A DNA stretch of 38,197 nucleotides from Microcaldota archaeon (GTDB lineage Archaea > Micrarchaeota > Micrarchaeia > Anstonellales > Bilamarchaeaceae), in the NCBI GenBank assembly GCA_030648615.1, contig JAUSHJ010000062.1, positions 1-38,197 of the forward strand. Direction: 5' to 3'. Position 1 is the stretch's first letter; every line of letters begins with the position of its first letter. The notes below the pieces were generated by a model. It made no database searches and was not told where the DNA came from. It worked only from the letters and a program-made list of their open reading frames with translations. Both the position numbers and the translations under genes were made by a program. Below, in pieces: positions 36,630 through 36,873 of this stretch.

Positions 36630-36795
36630 TGCGACCGCCGAGGTTCGAACTCGGGTCACTAGATTGGCAATCTAGAATCCTACCGAAGTCCTCCGGATAG
36701 TTTTCAGTTTCGTGTTTCGAGTCCTGAGCTTTACTTTTGTTTTCAAGGCTCGAGACTTCAAGACAGAAGAATATCCAGAACTAGACTACAGTCGC
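36630..36795 (-). tRNA. tRNA-Gly(GCC) with a D-loop intron
   Basis: Reading leftward, exon 1 (36795-36781) is GCGACTGTAGTCTAG. Exon 2 (36685-36630) begins CGGTAGGATT. Joined, they make a 71-nt tRNA. The acceptor GCGACTG pairs with CGGTCGC (one G-U). The D-stem is GTCT/GGAT and the D-loop the classical AGCGGTA. The anticodon stem is CTAGA/TCTAG with loop TTGCCAA, anticodon GCC at 36666-36668. The T-arm is CCGAG-TTCGAAC-CTCGG, discriminator A. CCA is not encoded. Exon 2 alone looks like a tRNA lacking a 5' end. A CTTAGT/ACTAAG inverted repeat (36803-36818) lies just upstream. The gap 36552-36873 holds nothing else evident. Confidence 0.88.
36686..36780 (-). other. 95-nt bulge-helix-bulge intron in tRNA-Gly, between nucleotides 15 and 16
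   Basis: A 4-bp central helix forms between exon GTCT (tRNA 10-13) and intron GGAC. A 3-nt bulge AGT on the 5' side is cut AG/T, and a 3-nt bulge TTC on the 3' side is cut TT/C. The inner intron helix is TCTGGATA with TATCCGGA (8 bp, one G-U). Cutting at the usual bulge positions restores a perfect D-loop. The outer helix is not evident, so this is a relaxed motif. The intron is non-canonical in position; the usual archaeal site is after nucleotide 37. Confidence 0.85.
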
Positions 36796-36873
36796 AGTTG
36801 TTCTTAGTCTATACTAAGCATTAGTAACAAACCAAGAATAATTACTTAGTAAAGAAAGTAATAAAAAACACTC

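Follow-up and report, generated by a model that had tools for sequence, protein, structure and literature searches.

Archaeal tRNA introns that lie outside the 37/38 position, often several to a genome, have been described in Thermoproteales, Korarchaeum, ARMAN-1 and ARMAN-2, Caldiarchaeum and Atabeyarchaeia, and where studied they are linked to a broad-specificity EndA (PMC4033280, PMC4090602, PMC12397907, PMC11291895, PMC3293823). D-arm introns are already known among them (PMC4090602, PMC6379350, PMC3293823). A 2014 review names positions 20/21, 22/23, 25/26, 29/30, 30/31, 45/46, 53/54, 56/57 and 59/60, followed by "etc."; it does not name 15/16, and the open end of the list leaves room for earlier reports (PMC4090602). 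The closest enzyme to have been studied, the epsilon2 (three-unit) EndA of Candidatus Micrarchaeum acidiphilum ARMAN-2, cuts both BHB and relaxed motifs in vitro (PMC12397907, PMC6379350).

Here we document a tRNA-Gly(GCC) gene interrupted by a 95-nt intron at 15/16. The gene lies in a stretch of 38,197 nt, referred to below as the window, which is contig C43 of a 76-contig, 1.65-Mb Micrarchaeota MAG (G000) that is ~90% complete. The intron is of a known kind, the non-canonical archaeal BHB intron, and like others of that kind it has a relaxed BHB outside 37/38. It differs from them in that its splice motif takes its exonic half from the 5´ strand of the D-stem, and in that the site is recurrently occupied within one family.

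The interrupted gene and its splice junction

All features of the gene are on the minus strand. Exon 1 (nt 1-15; GCGACTGTAGTCTAG) is 15 nt long and occupies 36781..36795. It is followed by the 95-nt intron (36686..36780), placed by junction alignment to orthologs, fold and shuffles, and by exon 2 (nt 16-73, 56 nt, CGGTAGG...GGTCGCA, anticodon GCC; 36630..36685), which reads CGGTAGGATTCTAGATTGCCAATCTAGTGACCCGAGTTCGAACCTCGGCGGTCGCA from 36685 to 36630 and ends without an encoded CCA. The first-pass annotation had proposed these exons, and a D-loop intron whose removal joins 36781 to 36685 and restores every arm. The joined sequence, which we judged by ARAGORN and by alignment to orthologs, bears this out: ARAGORN calls a 71-nt tRNA-Gly(GCC) with all arms formed (acceptor stem 7 bp including one G-U, D-stem 4 bp, anticodon stem 5 bp, T-stem 5 bp), and identity to 20 uninterrupted Gly(GCC) orthologs is 77-87%. 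Removal of the intron thus gives a complete cloverleaf tRNA.

An archaeal splice junction with a 4-bp helix and two 3-nt bulges had also been predicted, and these elements are present. The 5´ strand of the central helix is the GTCT of the D-stem (nt 10-13; 36783..36786), whose partner is GGAC in the pre-tRNA and GGAT of exon 2 in the mature tRNA. Its 3´ strand is the intronic GGAC (36688..36691), where most other introns at the site have AGAC, GGAC or GGAT. Beside the resulting GUCU/GGAC helix stand the 5´ splice-site bulge AG|T (36780..36782; AG|U in the RNA) and the 3´ splice-site bulge TT|C (36685..36687; UU|C), the latter placed by pairing analysis. The intronic helix h´ comprises 8 contiguous pairs between TCTGGATA (36772..36779) and TATCCGGA (36692..36699, also from pairing analysis). 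In the unconstrained fold of the precursor, AGU (nt 14, nt 15 and the first intron nucleotide) is unpaired and forms a 3-nt bulge between h´ and the helix of D-stem strand and intron end, and the 8-bp intronic helix appears as UCUGGAUA/UAUCCGGA. The z-score of this fold is -2.96, with none of 200 shuffles equally stable, and joint pairing of the central and intronic helices was found in 0 of 20,000 shuffles of the intron.

The strict hBHBh´ motif has flanking helices on both sides, and here only h´ (8 bp) is present; the outer exonic helix is absent. Since there is no proper pairing of nt 8-9 with nt 18-19 beyond the 3´ bulge, the motif is of the relaxed HBh´ form, a refinement of the earlier interpretation, which is otherwise supported. 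Relaxed BHB forms are likewise genuine substrates.

When all junctions were scored against the 20 uninterrupted orthologs, 15|16 and 16|17 tied as best, CTAG|CGGTA and TAGT|GGTAG being equivalent by this measure, and the same intron could in principle be spliced one nucleotide later. However, BHB sites are cut between the second and third nucleotides of each 3-nt bulge, which yields 15/16, and for this reason we assign the intron to that position. The remaining Gly introns match the 15/16 register as well, and splicing at 16/17 is thus quite unlikely.

Two other types of gene were also considered and rejected. Group I introns have a conserved catalytic core and are usually longer than ~200 nt; the window intron is 95 nt long and has no Rfam match. 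Nor is the gene a split or permuted tRNA, as the exons are in order and 95 nt apart.

A second interrupted copy and the same site in relatives

A second tRNA-Gly(GCC) gene, on contig C25 and the sole further copy detected, has exons identical to those of the window copy, including the 15-nt exon 1, and carries a different, 41-nt intron (TACTG...AGACAA) at the same site. The 3´ flanks of the two copies are identical over ~70 nt with one mismatch, C25 ending within the shared flank, while the leader, the intron and the upstream gene differ. Upstream of both genes, on the far side of the differing leader, is a common 24-nt block (GAGTGTTTTTTATTACTTTCTTTA; window 36850-36873, minus strand) that is a possible promoter. 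The C25 copy is either the result of a recent duplication or a strain variant located in a different neighborhood, and the two copies in this MAG could reflect strain variation, with one of them perhaps decaying.

An uninterrupted second tRNA-Gly(GCC), in combination with a missing spliced product, had been named as a finding that would speak against the interrupted gene. No such uninterrupted copy was found in the genome by a pattern search allowing up to 3 mismatches or by Rfam, and the second copy that does exist is itself interrupted at the same position. As the genome is about nine-tenths complete, an uninterrupted copy could lie in an assembly gap. The GCC anticodon is needed for GGC and GGU, and at least one interrupted copy should therefore be functional. 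On inspection of the 20 Rfam tRNA matches in this genome, several other tRNAs were seen to have introns in the D-arm, in the T-arm and at 37/38.

Within the family, the Gly(GCC) site is intact in 24 species and interrupted in six others, by introns of 81 nt (G009), 57 nt (G007), 32 nt (G014), 29 nt (G012), 148 nt (G001) and 42 nt (G034); in the last three of these, the Gly gene has a second intron in the T-arm. While the bodies of the introns at the site look unrelated by eye, the central helix is conserved. In 7 of the 8 Gly introns of the window, C25 and the six species, intron positions -6 to -3 read GGAC, AGAC or GGAU and form all four pairs with GUCU, so that five of the six other species keep the full helix, with G034 retaining only two of the four pairs. 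The intron in the tRNA-Gln gene of the window's own genome (G000) forms three of the four central pairs, and the 148-nt intron of G001 is without a contiguous h´ helix. A further 15/16-type intron, in the tRNA-Asp(GTC) gene on contig C4 of G000, has GUGU in the D-stem and GCAU at the intron end, so that both members of the third pair differ. We consider the helix kept in diverged Gly introns, together with this Asp pair altered on both strands, the strongest evidence that the central helix is under selection.

D-loop introns at 14/15 or 15/16 were observed in tRNA-Asp(GTC) both in this genome (L013/L151, C4) and in several species of genus g12 (L076, L080, L143, L145, L146); such an intron is absent from tRNA-Asp(GTC) of G018. 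The g12 introns fit 14/15 as well as 15/16 and were therefore left out of the 15/16 count. A candidate from another family (G272) was omitted because its insertion does not fit the site cleanly.

The window locus could instead be a tRNA pseudogene, an old Gly(GCC) gene that was broken by an insertion and is no longer used, with the real tRNA supplied by another gene. Two Gly(GCC) copies in the assembly and repeat sequence within the window intron are what such decay might leave. Against it, the C25 copy is broken at the very same nucleotide, the exons of both copies are identical and fold perfectly, and interruption recurs in six other species, five of them with the full central helix; decay would not conserve both splice sites. 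We regard the pseudogene as very unlikely.

Shared intron ends and a dispersed heptad repeat

The C25 Gly intron and the 15/16 intron of tRNA-Gln(CTG) on contig C53 share an exact TCTAGTACTGTTTTTGACATNTGT, of which TCTAG is exon and the remainder intron, as well as a GACAA 3´ end. With up to 3 mismatches permitted, TCTAGTACTGTTTTTGACATNTGT was not found in 42 other genomes of the family. The shared 5´ intron end suggests transposition between tRNA genes and fits the intron transposition described for Thermoproteales (Fujishima 2010, as cited in PMC4033280 and PMC4090602). There, too, similar introns are found in different tRNA genes; the present case differs in consisting of one pair only, C25 Gly(GCC) and C53 Gln(CTG), and in coming from a Micrarchaeon. 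The tRNA-Gln(CTG) gene (L020/L150, G000:C53:8769-8860) also has an apparent insertion in the T-arm.

The window intron contains three heptads of the form CNNRARA (CTCGAAA CACGAAA CTGAAAA; 36701..36721, minus strand), which belong to a dispersed repeat. Four tandem copies of CNNRARA matched this genome 13 times, some of the hits overlapping, whereas a reversed control gave no hit, and among the 116 genomes sampled they were found almost only in this family and in G097. Elsewhere in the genome the repeat is present at C8:32206-32261 and on contigs C52, C44, C65, C41 and C63. Similar heptads are found in the T-arm intron of the genome's tRNA-Gly(TCC) and in introns of G001 and G034, and a repeat resembling CNNRARA stands immediately upstream of the C25 Gly gene. 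The repeat thus turns up within several tRNA introns as well as directly upstream of tRNA genes. Its presence in this and other tRNA introns makes it probable that the window intron was enlarged by the repeat. A parallel exists in Nostoc, where tRNA-Leu(UAA) has a self-splicing group I intron. In that intron, degenerate 7-nt repeats likewise enlarge a hairpin (PMC3488679), although the example is cyanobacterial and its sequence unrelated.

Might the interruption, then, be a mobile or repetitive element whose ends resemble a splice motif by chance, with no splicing taking place? The dispersed heptads, with their 13 overlapping hits against none for the reversed control, and the similar repeat immediately upstream of the C25 gene are features of such an insertion. 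Yet the repeat is confined to the middle of the intron, whose ends are the BHB strands, and shorter introns at the same site are without it. We consider a chance insertion highly improbable.

Splicing machinery, rtcB and gene detection

Introns at 15/16 had been described in the first-pass annotation as rare and in need of an endonuclease of relaxed specificity. The second part of this statement agrees with the gene content, since a search for the type of endonuclease found the epsilon2, broad-specificity form; the first part has to be qualified, as the site is recurrently occupied in the family and is not a one-off. The host EndA, encoded on contig C32, is 405 aa long and matches ARMAN-2 EndA (4fz2) end to end with E = 6e-136. 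The counterparts of Y160 and K161 of the ARMAN-specific loop, and of Y236, H251, R275, K282 and W384, for which roles have been reported (PMC12397907), are all identical in the alignment. With the catalytic triad, the YK of the loop and the other residues all kept, the enzyme is by sequence an epsilon2 EndA. Its 21 relatives in named genomes are all from Candidatus Micrarchaeota, in agreement with the archaeal host that had been proposed. The genome differs from ARMAN-2 in having a separate EndA-like protein of 163 aa (L002:1465-1956, minus strand, G000:C50), in which the catalytic His appears to be replaced.

The ligase RtcB is encoded on contig C63, so that an endonuclease for relaxed motifs and RtcB are both present. 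This rtcB, the sole one found in the genome, is itself interrupted: a frame-breaking insertion of 32 nt follows YCMPDGH (G000:C63:25109-25154, minus strand; L167/L169). Read across the 32 nt, the product matches Pyrococcus RtcB end to end (E = 2e-160), with MPDGH-S-GYGFPIGG at the site where Pyrococcus has MPDGH-Q-GYGFPIGG. A 32-nt insertion at the same site of rtcB is present in G001, a species of another genus (C51:19658-19703, plus strand; L164/L168), and the two insertions are identical at 28 of 32 positions, with a diverged loop. Both fold so that an exonic stem encloses a GUC/GAC helix, together with a 3-nt bulge and a hairpin. The pattern was found in no other of 296 genomes. We suggest that this insertion in the ligase gene is probably a pre-mRNA intron of the BHB type, whose splicing would probably need the RtcB ligase itself. 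Among archaeal pre-mRNAs, that of cbf5 is known to be spliced (PMC2738675), and a limited literature search found no published report of an rtcB intron. A different arrangement was observed in G006, G007, G012 and G014, where RtcB is encoded in open frames of 950-990 aa with a break near Pfam position 50, the pattern that an intein would give.

From the sequence and fold of the window gene, its conserved site and helix, and the presence of endonuclease and ligase genes, we infer that it is transcribed and its RNA cleaved and ligated, and we are confident that the gene encodes a functional tRNA-Gly(GCC) and that its D-loop intron at 15/16 is of the archaeal, protein-spliced type. In this model, the precursor would be transcribed whole, the D-stem 5´ strand GUCU (nt 10-13) would pair with GGAC near the 3´ end of the intron, and the 8-bp intronic helix would stack on GUCU/GGAC, giving the relaxed HBh´ motif. 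The epsilon2 EndA would then cut AG|U and UU|C and RtcB would join nt 15 to nt 16, after which the freed D-stem strand could re-pair with GGAU of exon 2 to form a normal D-arm. Such an exchange of partners by one strand of the D-stem, as the precursor becomes the mature tRNA, would be a simple and testable splicing arrangement.

More tentatively, 15/16 may be an intron hot spot in this Micrarchaeota family because half a splice motif is already in place in nt 10-13 of the D-stem, with introns moving between tRNA genes and being enlarged by heptads, and the splicing system may depend on itself because the rtcB mRNA carries its own BHB-like intron. Any DNA ending in the complement of nt 10-13 plus two nucleotides would, on this doubtful but possible reading, become removable.

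The warning that gene callers may miss the gene proved justified. On the unjoined window locus, ARAGORN with default settings called no tRNA and Rfam reported nothing at the gathering score; exon 2 alone gives a partial match to the Rfam tRNA model of 23.3 bits, where the threshold is 29. With introns permitted, ARAGORN misnames the gene as tRNA-Arg(TCG) with a 79-nt intron in the anticodon loop, a call that we reject, and whose chance of being right is negligible, because it would reduce the D-stem to 3 bp and require a long extra arm, leaves a perfect Gly(GCC) anticodon arm unused, and is contradicted by relatives, which have Gly(GCC) at this locus. Since standard tools miss or misname such genes, the tRNA inventories of Micrarchaeota may seem gapped when they are complete. 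The interesting part of these findings is the recurrent use of 15/16 and the presence of two different introns in one genome. One site that holds unrelated introns in seven species, is empty in 24 and carries two different introns in a single genome forms a natural series on the gain and movement of introns.
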